This document shows, one piece after another, positions 8,878 to 31,156 of a stretch of 42,557 bases of DNA. Position 1 is the first letter of the stretch; each line of letters begins with the position of its first letter. The notes beneath the pieces were generated by a model, which saw nothing but the letters and a program-made list of their open reading frames with translations, ran no database searches and was not told the origin of the DNA. Where the stretch lies: contig CACIGI010000010.1 of assembly GCA_902586125.1 (NCBI GenBank), positions 1 to 42,557 on the forward strand, in the 5' to 3' direction. The position numbers and the translations under genes were made by a program. The DNA comes from an uncultured Pelagibacteraceae bacterium. GTDB lineage: Bacteria; Pseudomonadota; Alphaproteobacteria; Pelagibacterales; Pelagibacteraceae.

Positions 8878-10575
8878 TTAATAAAGTTTTTCTAAATCTT
8901 CTTTATATTTTTCTAAAATTTTTTTTCTTTTTAGTTTTAAAGTTGGTGTTAACATTCCATTTTCAATTGTAAATTCTTCATTAATTAATTTTATTTTTTT
9001 TACTCTTTCAGCAAGAGATAAATTTTTATTTAAATCATCTATATATAATTCAATTTCTTTTTTATTTTTTTCACTATCACTGACAATTAAAGCAACTAAA
9101 TAAGTTTTTTTGTCTCCATAAACAAAACTTTGATTAATTTTGTCGTCAAGACACAATAAATTTTCAATTTTTGAGGGCGAAATGTTATCACCACCAGAAT
9201 TAACAATTATTTCCTTTTTTCTATCAGTAATTTTTAAATTTCCTTCTTTTGTAATTTCACCTATATCTCCTGTGTGTAACCAACCATTTTTAAGTATATC
9301 GTCTGTTTCCTTTTTCATATTCCAGTAACCAAGCATTACATTTTCACCTTTGACCATAATCTCACCATCGTGTGCAATCTTCACCTCATTTGTTTTAAAA
9401 GGGGGTCCTACTGTGTCAATCTTGATTTTTTCAGGTATATTGCAACTAACTACTGGGGATGCTTCCGTAAGACCATATCCTTGTAAAATTGGTAATCCAA
9501 TAGAGTTCAAAAATTCACCTATTTTTTGATCTAAAGCACCCCCTCCAGAAACAAAAGCCTTTAAATTTCCGCCAAACTGATTTTTAATTTTCCTTCTTAC
9601 TAACTTTTCACATAAATAATTCAATATTTTTTCTCCAAAGGTCATATTCTCATTATTTAGTTTTTTTATTCCAAGCGAAATTGTCAGTAATATTAATTTT
9701 TTCTTGAGTCCTGTTTGTTTTGAGAAATTCATCGAAATCTTGCTATACAAATTTTGATAAAATCTAGGTACAGCAGTCATTATAGTTGGTTTAGCAACTG
9801 ACATATTAGATAATAATTTTTCTAAACTTTCAGCATAATAAATTTTTGCTCCTAATGTGATTTGAACAAATTGAACTGCATGCTCATAAGAATGAGATAG
9901 AGGTAGCCAAGTCAAAAAAACAGGTTCACTATTTTTAACTAACGAATTCAAAATTTCTTGTGCACCCTCACAATTAGATAAAATACCCCCATGACTGAGC
10001 ATTACACCTTTGGGGTTACCAGTTGTCCCGGATGTGTAGATGATACAAGCGAGATCTTTTCTTTCAATATTTTGGTTAAAACTCAAATGATTTATAGTTT
10101 TTTCTTCAGAAAATCTTTCAAGAATACTTTCTATACTATCAATTTGATCATTTATATTTTCTATTGATAAAACTTTTATTTTATCTGAAATGAACTTATC
10201 TATTTTTTTTAATTGAATATTATTTGAGACAATACAAATTTTTGGATTACAGTCATTTATGATATATTCGTAATCTTTCTCAGAATAAGTTGTAAATAGA
10301 GGAACTGTTACCCCGCCAGTATTCATAATGGCTATATCAGAAATAAGCCATTCAGGTCGATTTTCAGACAATAAAATGCATCTATCTCCTTTAGATAAAT
10401 TTTTTCTTAAATATTCAGATAAAATTTGGATATTTGTTTCAACTTGTTTCCAGGTAATATAATTTTTTTTGTCATCCTTTAACCACTTTAAAAATGGCTT
10501 ATTAGAAGTAGAGTTTAACTCCTTATACTTCGTAAAAAAAAGTTCTACTAAACTGTTAATTTTACTTAATTCCAT
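8878..10575 (-). CDS. Long-chain acyl-CoA synthetase (AMP-forming)
   Basis: A 565-residue adenylate-forming enzyme. The AMP-binding P-loop is IIYTSGTTGNPKGVMLSHGG (residues about 178-197), followed by GYGLTEASPV, GWLHTGDIGE and the C-terminal hinge LKITDRKKEIIVNSGG, ending with a catalytic-lysine region (TPTLKLKRKKI). It resembles the FAA1/FadD15-like long-chain fatty acid ligases and activates fatty acids as acyl-CoA at the inner membrane. The exact chain length is not readable. The ATG at 10573-10575 begins only four bases after the CCA end of tRNA-Leu on the same strand, so its mRNA is probably a read-through product of the tRNA transcript or nearly leaderless. No beta-oxidation genes adjoin it. 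Confidence 0.9.
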   Translation of the reverse strand: MELSKINSLVELFFTKYKELNSTSNKPFLKWLKDDKKNYITWKQVETNIQILSEYLRKNLSKGDRCILLSENRPEWLISDIAIMNTGGVTVPLFTTYSEKDYEYIINDCNPKICIVSNNIQLKKIDKFISDKIKVLSIENINDQIDSIESILERFSEEKTINHLSFNQNIERKDLACIIYTSGTTGNPKGVMLSHGGILSNCEGAQEILNSLVKNSEPVFLTWLPLSHSYEHAVQFVQITLGAKIYYAESLEKLLSNMSVAKPTIMTAVPRFYQNLYSKISMNFSKQTGLKKKLILLTISLGIKKLNNENMTFGEKILNYLCEKLVRRKIKNQFGGNLKAFVSGGGALDQKIGEFLNSIGLPILQGYGLTEASPVVSCNIPEKIKIDTVGPPFKTNEVKIAHDGEIMVKGENVMLGYWNMKKETDDILKNGWLHTGDIGEITKEGNLKITDRKKEIIVNSGGDNISPSKIENLLCLDDKINQSFVYGDKKTYLVALIVSDSEKNKKEIELYIDDLNKNLSLAERVKKIKLINEEFTIENGMLTPTLKLKRKKILEKYKEDLEKLY

Positions 10576-25755: not shown

Positions 25756-26510
25756 ATATCAATTTAGATAAAAATCAAATAGAGAGATTTTCAAGACAAA
25801 TAGTTTTAAAAAATATTGGAAGCTTAGGCCAAAAAAAAATTATTGGAGCAAAAGTTTTAATTATTGGAATGGGAGGCTTAGGTTGTCCTGCGGCTGAGTT
25901 TTTAGCAAGAGCAGGCGTAGGTGTTTTGGGCATTGTTGACCCTGATATTGTTAATTTATCAAATATTCACAGACAAAGTCTTTACAGTATCGAAGATTTA
26001 AAAAAATTCAAAGTAAAGTCTGCTCAAAAAAAATTAAAAAAGATAAACTCAAAAATAAAAGTAAACGCGTATAAAATAAGATTAAATGTTAACAATTATC
26101 AAAAAATTTTAAAAAATTATGACTACATAATTGATGGATCAGATAATTTTGAAACAAAGTTTTTAATTAATGATGCTTCAAGAAAATATAAAAAATTTCT
26201 TGTAACCGGAGCAATAAGTAAATTTGATGGTCATATTTTTAGTTTTGATTTTAAAAATAAAAAAACACCTTGTATAAGATCTTTTTATCAAGAATATGAG
26301 GTATCAGAAGATATATTAAATTGTGAATATGATGGCATCTTGGGGACAGTAGCTGGTATAATAGGAATTATGCAAGCGAATGAAATTTTAAAAAAAATTT
26401 TATCTATCGGTAAAAGTTTGAATGGTCAAGTTTTGGTTATAGATCTATTAAATCTGAATTTTAGAAAAATTAAATTTAAAAAGTTAAAAGATGTTAAAAA
26501 AAAAATTTAA
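25752..26510 (+). CDS. MoeB/ThiF/HesA-type E1-like adenylyltransferase lacking the zinc tetrad
   Basis: A 252-residue member of the ubiquitin E1-like family. It has RFSRQIVLKNIGSLGQKKI, the nucleotide-binding VLIIGMGGLGCPAAEFLARAGVG, DPDIVNLSNIHRQSLY and DGSDNFETKFLINDA. The family adenylates the C-terminal Gly-Gly of small sulfur carriers such as MoaD or ThiS. In MoeB two CxxC pairs bind zinc. Here the first reads CIRS (second Cys is Ser) and the C-terminal pair is missing, while the likely catalytic Cys in LNCEYDGILG is kept. No carrier gene is nearby, so the substrate is unknown. It overlaps the following SH3 gene by 20 bases. Confidence 0.87.
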   Translation: MNINLDKNQIERFSRQIVLKNIGSLGQKKIIGAKVLIIGMGGLGCPAAEFLARAGVGVLGIVDPDIVNLSNIHRQSLYSIEDLKKFKVKSAQKKLKKINSKIKVNAYKIRLNVNNYQKILKNYDYIIDGSDNFETKFLINDASRKYKKFLVTGAISKFDGHIFSFDFKNKKTPCIRSFYQEYEVSEDILNCEYDGILGTVAGIIGIMQANEILKKILSIGKSLNGQVLVIDLLNLNFRKIKFKKLKDVKKKI

Positions 26511-26946
26511 ACTTTTTCTTATAACTTTATTTTTATTATCTTTTACCTCATTAAGTTATGCTCAAGAAACTTTCTTGTCTTTAAAGAAAAGTAAGGTGAA
26601 TGTAAGGTATGGACCGAGTTTTGAATCTCCTATAAAGTTTATTTATAAAAAAGTGAATTTGCCTCTAAAGCAAATTGATAAAAAAGAGAACTGGCGAAGA
26701 GTAATTGATTTTAAAAACAACAGCGGATGGATACATTGGTCTCAATTAAAAAAAATAAATTCAATCATTCCCACAAAAGATAAAATTTTATTTGAAAATC
26801 CAACAAATTTTTCAAAACCATTGGCTAAAATTAAAAGTGGAAGAGTTCTAATAGTTCAAAAATGCAATGGAATTTGGTGCAAAATAAATACGGATGATTT
26901 TGAAGGTTGGATAAAGACAGACAATATTTGGGGTGTATTAGATTAA
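26491..26946 (+). CDS. Exported SH3-domain protein
   Basis: A 151-residue protein with a clear signal peptide (lysine-rich start, hydrophobic core LFLITLFLLSFTSLSYAQ, cleavage after YAQ near residue 25). Two bacterial SH3-like repeats follow: KSKVNVRYGPSFESPIKFIY...WRRVIDFKNNSGWIHWSQL and ILFENPTNFSKPLAKIKSGR...GIWCKINTDDFEGWIKTDNIWG. This architecture fits the SH3_4/DUF1058 family, which probably binds peptidoglycan or another envelope partner. The function is not established. It overlaps the MoeB-like gene by 20 bases, and its stop overlaps the convergent DUF2061 gene by four. Confidence 0.85.
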   Translation: MLKKKFKLFLITLFLLSFTSLSYAQETFLSLKKSKVNVRYGPSFESPIKFIYKKVNLPLKQIDKKENWRRVIDFKNNSGWIHWSQLKKINSIIPTKDKILFENPTNFSKPLAKIKSGRVLIVQKCNGIWCKINTDDFEGWIKTDNIWGVLD

Positions 26947-27185
26947 GAGTTTTTTGATTTACTTGCCCACCACTTATCTAAAATAAAATACCATATAGAA
27001 TTAGCTATTGGTTCTACTATTGCATCTGTTAGTGCTATCATAAAGCTGACATCAGCAACAAACATTAAAACAGTTATAGCTATAGCAAAATGACCAATTG
27101 TATAAATGATGGTTCTTAAAATTGAACCTCTATTATTTGTGTAAATCTGTCCAGCAGCTTTGAATATGCCAGTTGTTAATTCCAT
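26943..27185 (-). CDS. DUF2061 small membrane protein
   Basis: An 80-residue protein with two hydrophobic helices around residues 24-48 and 50-68 (SILRTIIYTIGHFAIAITVL, ALTDAIVEPIANSIWYFILD), ending in a charged WWASKSKNS tail. The R-S/T-x3 start of helix one and the ending W-Y-x-L-D-x-x-W match the DUF2061 family of unknown function. It overlaps the end of the oxygenase gene by one base and is probably the last gene of the katG operon. Confidence 0.75.
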   Translation of the reverse strand: MELTTGIFKAAGQIYTNNRGSILRTIIYTIGHFAIAITVLMFVADVSFMIALTDAIVEPIANSIWYFILDKWWASKSKNS

Positions 27186-27781
27186 TATTTTTTAAACGGA
27201 CTATCAAGCACACAAGCAACTAGGTGCACTCTAGCCTGTTCCCCACCATTAAAAAAATTATGATATTTCGTATTATTTGTTATCCATACCTTACCATCAG
27301 CTGGAAGATGTTTTGCTACATTTTCAATTACCATTGAACAGCCCTTATTAGTTATGATGGGTACATGCAGTCTACATTCAGGATCTTTGTGCCAGCTTAA
27401 TGTCGATCTTGGCTCTTTTAATAATAATCTAACTCTACCAAGTTTAAACCTTTTGCTTAAAGTGTCGTAAACTTCTTTAAAATAAGTATTTTCAAATTCA
27501 GGAACCAATTGAGTATATTTTGACTCATCTATATCAACATCTCGAGAAACTTCTTTTCCAGTTTCATCGGCAATTGTCCAATATTTTCCTCTTATATTAT
27601 TTCCCTCAATAGAACTTCTATCGTTTGGAATTTGGTTTAATGGTATTGCGCCAAAGTGAGTAACCCCAGGAGAATTGAATTTTTTAGCTTTTAAAACTTT
27701 ATTCAAATCATTTCTTAACTTTGATATATCAAAATTAAGATTAGGAACTTCGTAGAAGTCCTCAAAATTTGCTGTTCCCAT
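27185..27781 (-). CDS. Aspartyl/asparaginyl beta-hydroxylase-like 2-oxoglutarate/Fe(II) oxygenase
   Basis: A 198-residue protein with a double-stranded beta-helix signature. LSWHKDPECRLHVPI gives the HxD iron ligands, and a later histidine pair (TKYHNFFNGGEQARVHLVACV) gives the distal His and an Arg for 2-oxoglutarate. This resembles the Asp/Asn hydroxylase family. The substrate is unknown and could be a protein or small molecule. It sits 24 bases after katG and overlaps the DUF2061 gene by one base, so the three are probably transcribed together from the katG promoter. A peroxide-linked role is inferred from that context only. Confidence 0.78.
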   Translation of the reverse strand: MGTANFEDFYEVPNLNFDISKLRNDLNKVLKAKKFNSPGVTHFGAIPLNQIPNDRSSIEGNNIRGKYWTIADETGKEVSRDVDIDESKYTQLVPEFENTYFKEVYDTLSKRFKLGRVRLLLKEPRSTLSWHKDPECRLHVPIITNKGCSMVIENVAKHLPADGKVWITNNTKYHNFFNGGEQARVHLVACVLDSPFKK

Positions 27782-27805: not shown

Positions 27806-30043
27806 TTAGTTTAATTTCAAATCAAATCGATCAGAATTCATAACTTTTGCCCATGCTGTGATAAAATCTTTAATAAATTTATCACCCGAATCTTCACATG
27901 CATAAACTTCTGCTAGTGCTCTTAGTTGAGAATTTGAACCAAAAATTAAATCAACTCTTGTCGCCTTCCATTTAGTTTTTTGAGTTTTTCTATCTTTACC
28001 AACAAATGTTTGTTCAGATTTATCCTCTTCTTTCCAAGTAGTATTCATATCTAAAAGATTTATGAAATAATCGTTAGTAAGAGAACCAGGTCTATTAGTA
28101 AAAACACCATGTTTTGAGCCATCAAAATTTGTGTTTAACACTCTCATACCACCCACAAGTGCAGTCATTTCTGGAGCCGTTAAACCCATCAATTGAGCCT
28201 TATCAACCAGTTTTTCCTCTGGAGAAACATTTGAAGCTGCACCATTTAAGTAGTTTCTAAAACCATCTGCTTGTGGTTCTAAAAGACCAAATGAGTTAAT
28301 ATCAGTCTGATCTTGCCTTGCGTCTCCTCTTCCCGCTGAAAATGGAACTTGAACATTGTAGCCAGCTTTTTTTGCAGCCATTTCGATACCAACACCACCA
28401 GCCAGCACAATTAAATCTGCCATTGAAACACTTTTCTTTTTACCATCGAATTTGCTTTTAATTTTTTCTAAAGCTTTAATTACAGTCGATAATTTTTTTG
28501 GATTGTTCACTTTCCAATTTTTTTGTGGTTCCAACATTATTCTTGCACCATTAGCACCACCTCTTTTATCAGAGCCTCTGAACGTAGATGCTGAAGCCCA
28601 TGCAGTAGAAACTAAATCTGTAATTGATATTTTTGATTTAGAGATTTTACTTTTTAAATCTTTAATATCCTTTGATTTAAGTTTATATTTAGGCTTATCA
28701 ATTGGATCCTGCCAAATTAGTTGTTCTTTTGGAACCTCGCTACCAAGATAACAAACTCTTGGCCCCATATCTCTGTGAGTTAATTTAAACCATGCTCTCG
28801 CAAAAGCATCATGAAATTCTTTTGGATTTTGATGAAAATGTTTTGTGATAGGTCCATAGCTAGGGTCAACTTTCATCGATATGTCGGTTGTTTGCATCAT
28901 TGGTGGATGAAACACACCTTTTTGGTGTGCATCGGGAACCATTTTAATCTCTTGCCCATTTTTCTTCGGAGTCCATTGATGAGCACCTGCTGGGCTTTTT
29001 GTAAGTTCCCACTCATGTCCATATAAACAATCCAAATAACCCATATCCCATTGAATTGGATTTTGAGTCCAAGCGCCCTCAATACCACTACTTATTGTAT
29101 CAACACCTTTTCCAGATTTATATCCACTATTCCACCCAGTTGACTGTTCTTGAAGTCTTGAAGCCTCAGGGTCTGGTCCTTTAAATGACTCTGATGCTGC
29201 ACCATGAGATTTTCCAAACGTATGTCCTCCAGCAACTAATGCTGCTGTCTCATAGTCATTCATAGCCATTCTACCAAATGTTTCTCTTATATCGTGTGCT
29301 GCTAGTTTTGGATCTGGATTAGCGTCAGGACCTTGCGGATTTACATAGATTAAACCCATATGTGAAGCTCCTAATGGCTGTTCTAAATCTCTTTTTCCAC
29401 TATATCTTTCTACACCTAACATTTCTTTTTCTGAACCCCAATAAATATCATCTTCTGGTTCCCAAATATCAGTTCTACCAGCTCCGAAACCAAAAGTTTT
29501 AAAACCCATTGAGTCTAAAGCCACGTTTCCAACAAGTATGAATAAATCTGCCCATGAAATTTTTCTTCCATATTTCTTTTTAATAGGCCATAAAAGTAAT
29601 CTGGCTTTATCTAGGTTTACATTATCTGGCCAAGAATTAAGTGGCGCAAATCTCTGGTTACCTGTTCCTGCTCCACCTCGACCATCACCAGTTCTGTAAG
29701 TTCCTGCAGCATGCCAAGCTAATCTAATAAATAATGGACCATAATGACCATAATCTGCTGGCCACCACTCCTGAGAGTCTGTCATTAATTTTTTTAAATC
29801 TTTTTTTAATGCTTTGTAATTTAATTTTTTAAATTCTTTTGCATAATTAAATTTTTTATCCATAGGATTAGATAAATTTGAGTGCTGACTAAGAATTTTA
29901 AGATTTAAACTATTTGGCCAAAAGTCTCTTACTGTTTGACCTCTCCCTGCAGAAAACTTTGCAGGTGTTCCTGCTCCTGTAAAAGGACATTTGCTCATTT
30001 GATTAGCTTCAAAAGACTTGTTTTTGAAATTTTCAGTGCTCAT
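27806..30043 (-). CDS. katG: Catalase-peroxidase
   Basis: A 745-residue bifunctional haem enzyme of usual KatG length with two peroxidase-like domains. The distal pocket is [14 protein letters not shown] (Arg, Trp, His, near residues 94-107). The Tyr of the Met-Tyr-Trp crosslink lies in [17 protein letters not shown]. The proximal His is in [13 protein letters not shown]. The second domain (from about residue 430) has [20 protein letters not shown] and lacks haem ligands, as usual. It destroys hydrogen peroxide. No signal peptide is seen, so it is cytoplasmic. A sigma70-type promoter and two Fur-family boxes lie just upstream, next to the regulator gene. Confidence 0.97.
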
Positions 30044-30081: not shown

Positions 30082-30109
30082 TTTATAATAGTTCTAAACT
30101 AAAAGTCAA
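30082..30109 (-). promoter_or_regulatory. Predicted katG promoter
   Basis: On the minus strand TTGACT (30104-30109) is followed after 16 bases by TATAAA (30082-30087), about 38 bases before the katG ATG. Operator-like box A covers the spacer and -10, and box B ends two bases from the -35. Binding there should block RNA polymerase. Confidence 0.6.
30083..30099 (+). promoter_or_regulatory. Fur-family operator-like box A (katG)
   Basis: TTATAATAGTTCTAAAC. It shares 15 of 17 bases with the other two boxes and 12 of the 14 defined positions with the Bacillus PerR box TTATAATNATTATAA. It overlaps the katG -10 and spacer. Confidence 0.6.
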
Positions 30110-30111
30110 CA

Positions 30112-30128
30112 GTTTAGAATGATTATAA
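30112..30128 (-). promoter_or_regulatory. Fur-family operator-like box B (katG)
   Basis: On the minus strand TTATAATCATTCTAAAC, matching 13 of 14 defined PerR-box positions. It lies in inverted orientation to box A with centres 29 bases apart, directly upstream of the katG -35. Confidence 0.6.
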
Positions 30129-30153
30129 TATAAATTTAGAAAGAAAGATTTTT

Positions 30154-30582
30154 TTAATTCTGATTTTGAGTATCACTCGCAACTCTTACTAAAACTTCAA
30201 CAGAACTAATTTTTTTTCCTGTAATATTATTTTTAATGTTAACTTTACCAATTTCGTTATCATTACAATCTATAAGTAAGTTTGTATCCTCATCATAAAA
30301 ATGGTGATGTTTTGTAATATTTGTGTCAAAATAACTTTTATCGCTACTGATCGTAATTTCTTTTAAATATCCTTTGTCTTTAAAAGCATGAACTGTGTTG
30401 TAAATTGTAGCTAAAGATATTTTTTCATTAAAGTTTTTTGAAATATTTTTTGCTAAATCGTTAATTGTAAAGTGAAATGTTTTGTCTCTATTAAATAAGA
30501 CTTCACAAATTTTAAGTCTTTGTTTAGTGGGTCTAAGACCAGAATTTCTTAATTTGCTAACAAATTCGCTATTTTTTAACAT
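30154..30582 (-). CDS. irr: Fur-family regulator, Irr/PerR-like
   Basis: A 142-residue protein. The N-terminal winged helix has [20 protein letters not shown] and the recognition region [24 protein letters not shown]. The metal-sensing part has [15 protein letters not shown] (His 92-94). The two CxxC zinc pairs of Fur and classic PerR are absent, as in alphaproteobacterial Irr. Irr senses iron through haem, and some Irr or PerR-like members also sense peroxide. Its place beside fabA-fabB-fabI matches Irr in other alphaproteobacteria, as I recall. Copies of one operator-like motif lie in front of this gene and of the next minus-strand gene, katG. A TATAAT at 30588-30593 (minus) is so close to the ATG that the mRNA may be leaderless. 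Irr versus PerR cannot be settled from sequence alone. Confidence 0.82.
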
Positions 30583-30588
30583 TGTTAA

Positions 30589-30605
30589 TTATAATAATTC
30601 TAAAC
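30589..30605 (+). promoter_or_regulatory. Fur-family operator-like box C (irr/fabA)
   Basis: TTATAATAATTCTAAAC, matching 13 of 14 defined PerR-box positions. It lies 7-23 bases upstream of the irr ATG, overlaps the minus-strand TATAAT at 30588-30593, and covers the expected -35 zone of the fabA promoter. It could therefore control both directions. Confidence 0.6.
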
Positions 30606-30616
30606 TTTATGTATAT

Positions 30617-30622
30617 TATAAT
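30617..30622 (+). promoter_or_regulatory. Predicted fabA -10 element
   Basis: A perfect TATAAT 33 bases before the fabA ATG. The expected -35 position (about 30594-30599, ATAATT) is poor and lies within box C. The fabA ribosome binding site AAGGTGA is at 30641-30647. Confidence 0.5.
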
Positions 30623-30655
30623 GGTTTAAAATCAAGTATTAAGGTGATCTATTTT

Positions 30656-31156
30656 ATGAAAAAAAACTCCTATTCTTATGAAGAACTTATAAGTTGCGGA
30701 AACGGAGGTCTTTTTGGTCCTGGAAATGCAAAATTACCACTTCCACCAATGTTAATGTTTGATAGAATTACAGAAATTAATGACAAGGATGGTGCTTTTA
30801 AAAAAGGGTTTTTAAAGGCTGAATTAGATATAAAGAAAGACCTTTGGTTTTTTGATTGTCATTTCAAAGAAGATCCTGTGATGCCAGGATGCCTTGGACT
30901 TGATGCAATGTGGCAACTCGTAGGATTTTATTTAGGCTGGATTGGAAATCCTGGAAAAGGCAGAGCCTTAGGCGTTGGTACAGTAAAATTTACAGGAGAA
31001 GTTTTACAGAATGTTAAACTAGTCAAATATAAAATTGATATGAAAAAAATTATGTCTCCTGGTGGTACAACAGTTGGATTAGCTAATGGAATATTATTAG
31101 CAGACGAAAAAAAAATTTATTCAGCAGACAATTTAAAGGTGGGGTTATTCAAATAA
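30656..31156 (+). CDS. fabA: 3-hydroxydecanoyl-ACP dehydratase/isomerase
   Basis: A 166-residue hotdog-fold enzyme with the active-site segment [25 protein letters not shown] (catalytic His and the downstream Asp), preceded by [13 protein letters not shown] and followed by [15 protein letters not shown]. It dehydrates 3-hydroxyacyl-ACP and isomerises the C10 intermediate, the branch point to unsaturated fatty acids. The frame is open upstream to 30482, but the ATG at 30656 has a good AAGGTGA site nine bases away and gives the family N-terminus ([16 protein letters not shown]). The last base overlaps the fabB start. Confidence 0.95.

Follow-up and report, generated by a model that had tools for sequence, protein, structure and literature searches.

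In one genus of SAR11 bacteria (Pelagibacteraceae), the gene that follows the regulator gene irr is exchangeable between unrelated peroxide scavengers, and putative operators are kept before each of them. The gene in this slot encodes KatG, a rubrerythrin or a peroxiredoxin, all three peroxide-removing enzymes. The reading we favour, with a probability of about 70%, is that Irr binds its own promoter and that of the slot gene and represses both, such that the slot gene varies and the operators stay. The locus was met in a 42,557-nucleotide contig of an uncultured member of the genus (CACIGI010000010.1; the window), where the slot gene is katG.

Three boxes around irr in the window

An earlier sequence-only reading had reported three copies of one motif beside the regulator and none elsewhere in the window. 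This is borne out: TTATAATNNTTCTAAAC matches exactly at boxes A, B and C (Table 1), with no further exact copy in the window or in its own assembly (977,245 bases, 82% complete). The next best match in the window carries one mismatch (position 9811) and lies within an ORF (8878–10575). Across 150 dinucleotide shuffles of the window, 149 contain no exact copy and one contains a single copy, compared with three in the window itself. The katG promoter is also as first described; on the minus strand, TTGACT (30109–30104) and TATAAA (30087–30082) are separated by 16 bases, the second hexamer overlapped by box A and the first abutted by box B.

Table 1 Features of the irr–katG locus in the window
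Feature	Position	Strand	Basis or placement
SH3-domain gene, right flank of slot	26491..26946	+	Domain match and neighbourhoods
DUF2061 small membrane protein, end of katG cassette	26943..27185	-	Domain match and neighbourhoods
Aspartyl/asparaginyl hydroxylase-like gene (AspH), after katG	27185..27781	-	PF05118
katG, catalase-peroxidase, slot gene of the window lineage	27806..30043	-	TIGR00198, 1120.7 bits, cut-off 770
Predicted katG core promoter, TTGACT-16-TATAAA	30082..30109	-	Sequence reading
Box A	30083..30099	+	Overlaps katG -10 and much of the spacer
Box B	30112..30128	-	Ends 2 bases upstream of katG -35
irr, divergent Irr-type Fur-family regulator, 142 aa	30154..30582	-	Profile scores, motifs
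Box C	30589..30605	+	Ends 6 bases upstream of irr start codon
fabA, divergent left flank	30656..31156	+	Domain/family matches

The motif had been likened to the PerR box. Measured against the 15-mer TTATAATNATTATAA, the Bacillus PerR consensus, boxes A, B and C have two, one and one mismatches; the counts against the Irr palindrome core TTAGAATNATTCTAA are identical, and 'PerR-box-like' therefore fits the letters no better than 'Irr-box-like'.

Between irr and fabA (30610–30632) lies a TATAATATA-type string, which explains a three-mismatch motif match at 30616. TATAATATA is found in the irr upstream regions of 134 of 149 species and could act as a -10 element for irr or fabA. A -35/-10 pattern for irr matched only 39 of the 149 upstream regions, and no such pair is claimed.

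The regulator is a divergent Irr-type protein

The window regulator has a Fur-family fold (PF01475, 75.8 bits, cut-off 23.1). Its best-scoring families are NCBIfam IrrA (130.7 bits, under the cut-off of 150) and Irr (122.5 bits, under the cut-off of 170), with PerR models reaching at most 59.5 bits against cut-offs of 180–250. Applied to relatives, the IrrA model scores 147.2 on the sister-family copy and 210.8 and 204.8 on two rubrerythrin-adjacent proteins of other orders. By these profiles the window regulator counts as divergent Irr-type, a little short of the curated thresholds, and not as a certified IrrA.

Both CxxC pairs are lacking, as the sequence-only reading had remarked: there are two cysteines and no CxxC, hence no structural Cys4 zinc site of the PerR kind, and the alignment rows of the regulator have D/N opposite PerR C96 and non-cysteine residues opposite C99. 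The five PerR regulatory ligands (H37, D85, H91, H93 and D104 in PerR numbering) have counterparts at H37, D86, H92, H94 and D105 in 124/124 genus rows scored (149 rows, minus 24 dropped and one gapped there) and in 14/14 Irr-type rows from outside the genus. In the same 124 genus rows the HxH haem motif, as described for Irr (PMC7762939), is kept as H92-H93-H94. Because the ligands and HxH are common to the outside Irr-type rows too, they do not tell haem sensing from peroxide sensing. Family scores, the HxH motif and the gene neighbourhood point to Irr, not PerR. The original 'Irr/PerR-like' label therefore keeps its Irr half, to which the Irr-type palindrome of the sister family (below) adds, and loses its PerR half to the low PerR scores.

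Box placement is conserved across the genus

In 149 species of the genus, we scanned both intergenic regions bordering irr, towards fabA and towards the slot gene, allowing two mismatches. The boxes recur at both sites, in the fabA–irr gap of 132/149 species and in the irr–slot gene gap of 146/148. The coding sequences of irr, fabA and the slot genes, 166,328 bases in total, contain no box, and shuffled intergenic sets yield boxes in 0–2 genomes. Seventeen of the 149 species have no box at this threshold upstream of irr, and under a slightly stricter, near-identical pattern the 18 worst irr upstream regions (3–7 mismatches) are all katG-type. A replicate collection of Pelagibacteraceae and kin (SAR11), partly the same genomes, has boxes upstream in 79/80 and downstream in 80/80, its slot genes being 12 katG, 67 rubrerythrin and one cut by a contig end. 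Control of katG by the neighbouring regulator, as proposed from the window, passes this comparison across the genus, which supports it well as a predicted link; the PerR name given to the regulator is unsupported.

Exact copies of TTATAATNATTCTAAAC number 90 in 201 genomes, 85 of them within 150 bases of irr, against seven for the reversed pattern. By placement, the irr upstream region holds 42 and the slot promoter 43, one precedes katG at a contig start and four lie elsewhere. Exact copies outside the locus come to these four, and one-mismatch matches to TTATAATNATTCTAAA in six genomes (46) barely differ from those to the reversed pattern (43); no wider regulon emerges from either search, each of which could miss divergent sites.

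The boxes hold their positions relative to the promoters. The TTCTAAA half is the most conserved part (98–100% per base over 134 upstream boxes). Of the 134 species (out of 149) in which box C was scored, 129 have it 4–7 bases from the start position of irr. Where box B could be scored, it sits 2 or 3 bases before TTGAC in 66/67 species; where both slot boxes could, box A follows box B by 28–31 bases in 23/23 katG-type, 20/33 rubrerythrin-type and 3/3 peroxiredoxin-type promoters. TTGAC itself is present in 83/87 katG-type and 58/58 rubrerythrin-type slot promoters. A TTCTAA half-site just upstream of the -35 (the box B position) is found in 58/58 rubrerythrin-type promoters and in 32/87 of the katG type, being absent from the other 55, whereas a facing TTAGAA half-site in the -35/-10 spacer (the box A position) is found in 71/87 katG-type and 18/58 rubrerythrin-type promoters. 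Operator preference therefore differs with slot type, and the window slot promoter carries both operators.

Control of fabA by box C was considered and rejected as the main reading, box C keeping a near-fixed distance to irr and no fabA-specific promoter pair being established.

The slot gene is exchangeable

The gene immediately following irr, in the same orientation, is katG in 89 species, that of a 138-residue rubrerythrin in 59 and that of a peroxiredoxin in three; two more irr copies (G074 and G019) are unclassifiable fragments. Counted by genome, katG is present in 97/201 and rubrerythrin in 61 others, nearly always in the same boxed slot. They occur together in 0/201 genomes, where 29.4 would be expected under independence, a descriptive figure only, as relatedness is ignored; the corresponding hypergeometric figure shares this property and should not be read as a p-value. 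Genome incompleteness was judged an unlikely cause of the exclusion, as 151/153 irr-bearing genomes show exactly one slot gene beside irr. Eight katG genomes have no visible irr, their katG standing at a contig end (contig ends checked for three). Among two rubrerythrin genomes without irr, one has rubrerythrin at a contig start (G217) and the other is a real exception, with ~1.4 kb upstream of rubrerythrin free of irr (G057). Outside the order, katG and rubrerythrin coexist in two genomes, so the exclusion is no rule of the class.

The flanks are constant. Divergent fabA lies upstream of irr in 149/149 species, and in the 17 neighbourhoods of ~10 kb read in the genus besides the window, the left flank is fabI-fabB-fabA-irr in 16, the remaining contig starting at irr. 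On the right, an SH3-domain gene and then a ThiF-family gene follow in 17/17, with an extra peroxiredoxin-like ORF interposed in one. The slot between these flanks holds katG-AspH-DUF2061, rubrerythrin-FeS-DUF3501 or the peroxiredoxin gene. The hydroxylase-like gene (PF05118) comes after katG in 9/10 katG neighbourhoods read and the DUF2061 gene in 7/10 (including L270–L275, L281 and L284; the DUF2061 ORF is absent in G231), and both seem to travel with katG. The Fe-S protein encoded after rubrerythrin occurs in 60/61 rubrerythrin genomes, in two more genomes as a partial and in one as a weak match, and in no katG genome.

Individual loci add detail. In G012 (L265, 4391–6892), the rubrerythrin is short, its 138 residues matching 145/194 positions in the NCBIfam model; next come genes for a cysteine-rich CCG Fe-S-type protein and DUF3501. 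In G015 (L280/L055), katG stands alone in the slot; it is divergent (58% identity), with one in-frame TAA reported in the match, which suggests that this katG came from a separate source. In G122 (L284), which belongs to another family of the order, irr-katG-AspH lacks the fab and SH3 flanks and the genome has no rubrerythrin, suggesting that an irr-katG unit can move as one piece.

We recognized no description of the slot-gene swap in those parts of the literature consulted; Rodionov 2006 may already give the ICE consensus and name irr-rubrerythrin among Irr targets.

The box resembles an Irr operator with one altered half

In the sister SAR11 family rubrerythrin follows irr, and TTTAGAATNATTCTAAA or a close variant stands at the same place as in the genus, before the -35, in 8/9 loci read (L251–L259). 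L256 has no palindrome. In L255 (G160), the irr slot holds a 61-residue ORF, not rubrerythrin, behind an Irr-type palindrome and TTGACT; katG is on another contig, and rubrerythrin was not found in this genome. The element at the corresponding place in other orders is more divergent. Rubrerythrin adjoins irr in 26/26 sister-family genomes that have it and in 6/7 of other orders; among the eight outside genomes with katG, the latter adjoins irr only in G122.

Relative to TTTAGAATNATTCTAAA, the genus box has one half altered (TTAGAAT to TTATAAT) and the other nearly invariant. The best reading of the window motif is as a putative Irr operator with one half-site changed. No comparable box was seen upstream of irr in the sister-family loci read by eye (L251–L259), and for this reason autoregulation may be specific to the genus.

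History and direction of the swap

The slot label has to change seven times on the irr tree, seven times on a concatenated one and 21 times on that of fabA; well-supported branches force only two, three and three of these changes, respectively. A single katG clade is rejected on the irr tree (AU p = 0.0014), built from a short protein with few well-supported branches. The window shares 97% identity with G033 in katG and 64% in irr; the window irr is 80% identical to those of three rubrerythrin-type species and 58–75% to three others. Either irr or katG may have moved in this lineage. By eye, the leader of the window katG, GGGGGAAATATT, is similar to the L125 and L146 leaders (GGGGAA) and unlike that of L115 (GGAG), and box B with its -35 resembles the rubrerythrin type, as if a recombination junction lay inside the window operator.

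A broader account, which we offer tentatively and would narrowly bet against, makes the irr locus a regulated socket. Whole, unrelated cassettes for peroxide defence would pass from one SAR11 lineage to another by recombination between the constant flanks (fabA-irr and SH3-thiF), and the resident Irr would control each arrival through the operator pair, leaving one regulated main scavenger per species, fitted to its peroxide and iron regime.

Proposed mechanism and alternatives

From its fixed place divergent from fabA-fabB-fabI, Irr is predicted to bind the asymmetric boxes in two promoters. In its own it would occupy box C, next to the start codon of irr, and in that of the slot gene boxes B and A, which together lie around the -35 and cover the -10. 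Bound Irr would block RNA polymerase, with irr and the slot gene repressed until Irr lets go. Irr would then be an autoregulated local repressor whose slot target is katG in the window and, across the genus, katG with the hydroxylase-like gene, rubrerythrin with the Fe-S protein and DUF3501, or a peroxiredoxin. Here we infer binding, repression and the signal (haem or iron status and/or peroxide), the blocking of both genes being deduced from box placement together with Irr biology. A Rhodobacter irr mutant is reported to be peroxide-resistant with more katE mRNA; the same report finds no binding of Irr to the katE catalase promoter, which we count against our preferred explanation (PMC3413700).

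The locus could instead follow classical Irr practice, in which the apo form represses at low iron and haem releases it (PMC7762939, PMC3413700); haem or di-iron peroxidases would accordingly be made only at plentiful iron, with no direct part for peroxide. The Irr family placement, the HxH motif and the reported binding of apo-Irr to ICE boxes in studied species (PMC7762939) speak for this account, which we consider possible if somewhat doubtful. In iron-limited HTCC1062, however, rubrerythrin mRNA is reported to rise 1.57-fold, opposite to classical Irr repression and a better fit to an iron-dependent repressor, and irr mRNA and protein change little with iron (PMC2864753). Transcript alone is a weak guide, since under sulfur limitation rubrerythrin mRNA is reported to fall to 0.17 while the protein rises to 2.24 (PMC5069961). 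The same iron response would suit a functional PerR of Irr ancestry, in which Fe(II) in the His/Asp site makes the repressor and its oxidation by peroxide releases the scavenger gene. All five regulatory ligands are present, one half of each box is a PerR half-site and the three slot genes all encode peroxide-removing enzymes; yet the ligands are equally present in the outside Irr-type rows and so do not discriminate, the CxxC zinc site typical of PerR is missing and PerR models stay far below their cut-offs. We regard a functional PerR as unlikely.

Still less probable is action on the boxes by a Fur-family protein other than Irr. There are three Fur-family genes in each of four near-complete genus genomes (G012, G082, G234 and G004), and Fur-family operators resemble one another, but the boxes are confined to the irr locus (85/90 exact copies) and occupy the position of the sister-family Irr-type palindrome. 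That the motifs are mere AT-rich promoter pieces, their repetition reflecting promoters, we think very improbable: the -10 consensus is indeed part of TTATAAT, and the katG -10 is overlapped by box A, yet the most conserved half, TTCTAAA, is no promoter element, box B lies outside both hexamers and exact copies elsewhere are at the level of the control. Repression of irr and the slot gene by Irr remains our preferred reading.

Relation to known systems

The genus locus shares with the alphaproteobacterial Irr/ICE system (Rhodobacter mbfA and ccpA, a Bradyrhizobium rubrerythrin-like gene; reported in PMC3413700) an HxH Fur-family protein, an irr-rubrerythrin neighbourhood and boxes at the core promoter, and the sister-family box is the full palindrome TTTAGAATNATTCTAAA. 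It differs in having an asymmetric box (a TTATAAT half and a TTCTAAA half), an extra box beside irr, two slot operator positions and an exchangeable slot gene, with exact copies confined to the irr locus. The Bacillus PerR box, through which PerR controls katA and other peroxide genes, offers a second parallel in a Fur-family gene beside a catalase-type gene, boxes over the promoter and five conserved ligand residues. Unlike PerR, the genus regulator has no CxxC zinc site and scores low on PerR models, and its right half-site is Irr-type.

Published descriptions of individual strains, on which this comparison is based, agree with the slot pattern: HTCC1062 is reported to have rubrerythrin (PMC2864753, PMC5069961) and HTCC7211 a catalase gene (PMC6775983), and in a South Pacific study KatG is reported from SAR11 and rubrerythrin from 4/28 SAR11 members (PMC11366302). 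The Black Queen account, in which Prochlorococcus is without catalase and Pelagibacter ubique is cited as lacking it (PMC3033426), likewise concerns which plankton carry peroxide defence. In contrast to that account, katG is carried by 97/201 genomes of the genus and rubrerythrin by 61 others, nearly always in the boxed slot.

SAR11 bacteria are among the most abundant cell groups in the ocean. If the slot is real, their peroxide defence would be mostly exchanged under one regulator, not simply lost, and the choice between a haem enzyme, KatG, and a small di-iron rubrerythrin could be read at one locus. Slot type could then be mapped against light, iron and peroxide in metagenomes, and the irr locus gives a compact Irr circuit that can be tested in a streamlined genome.
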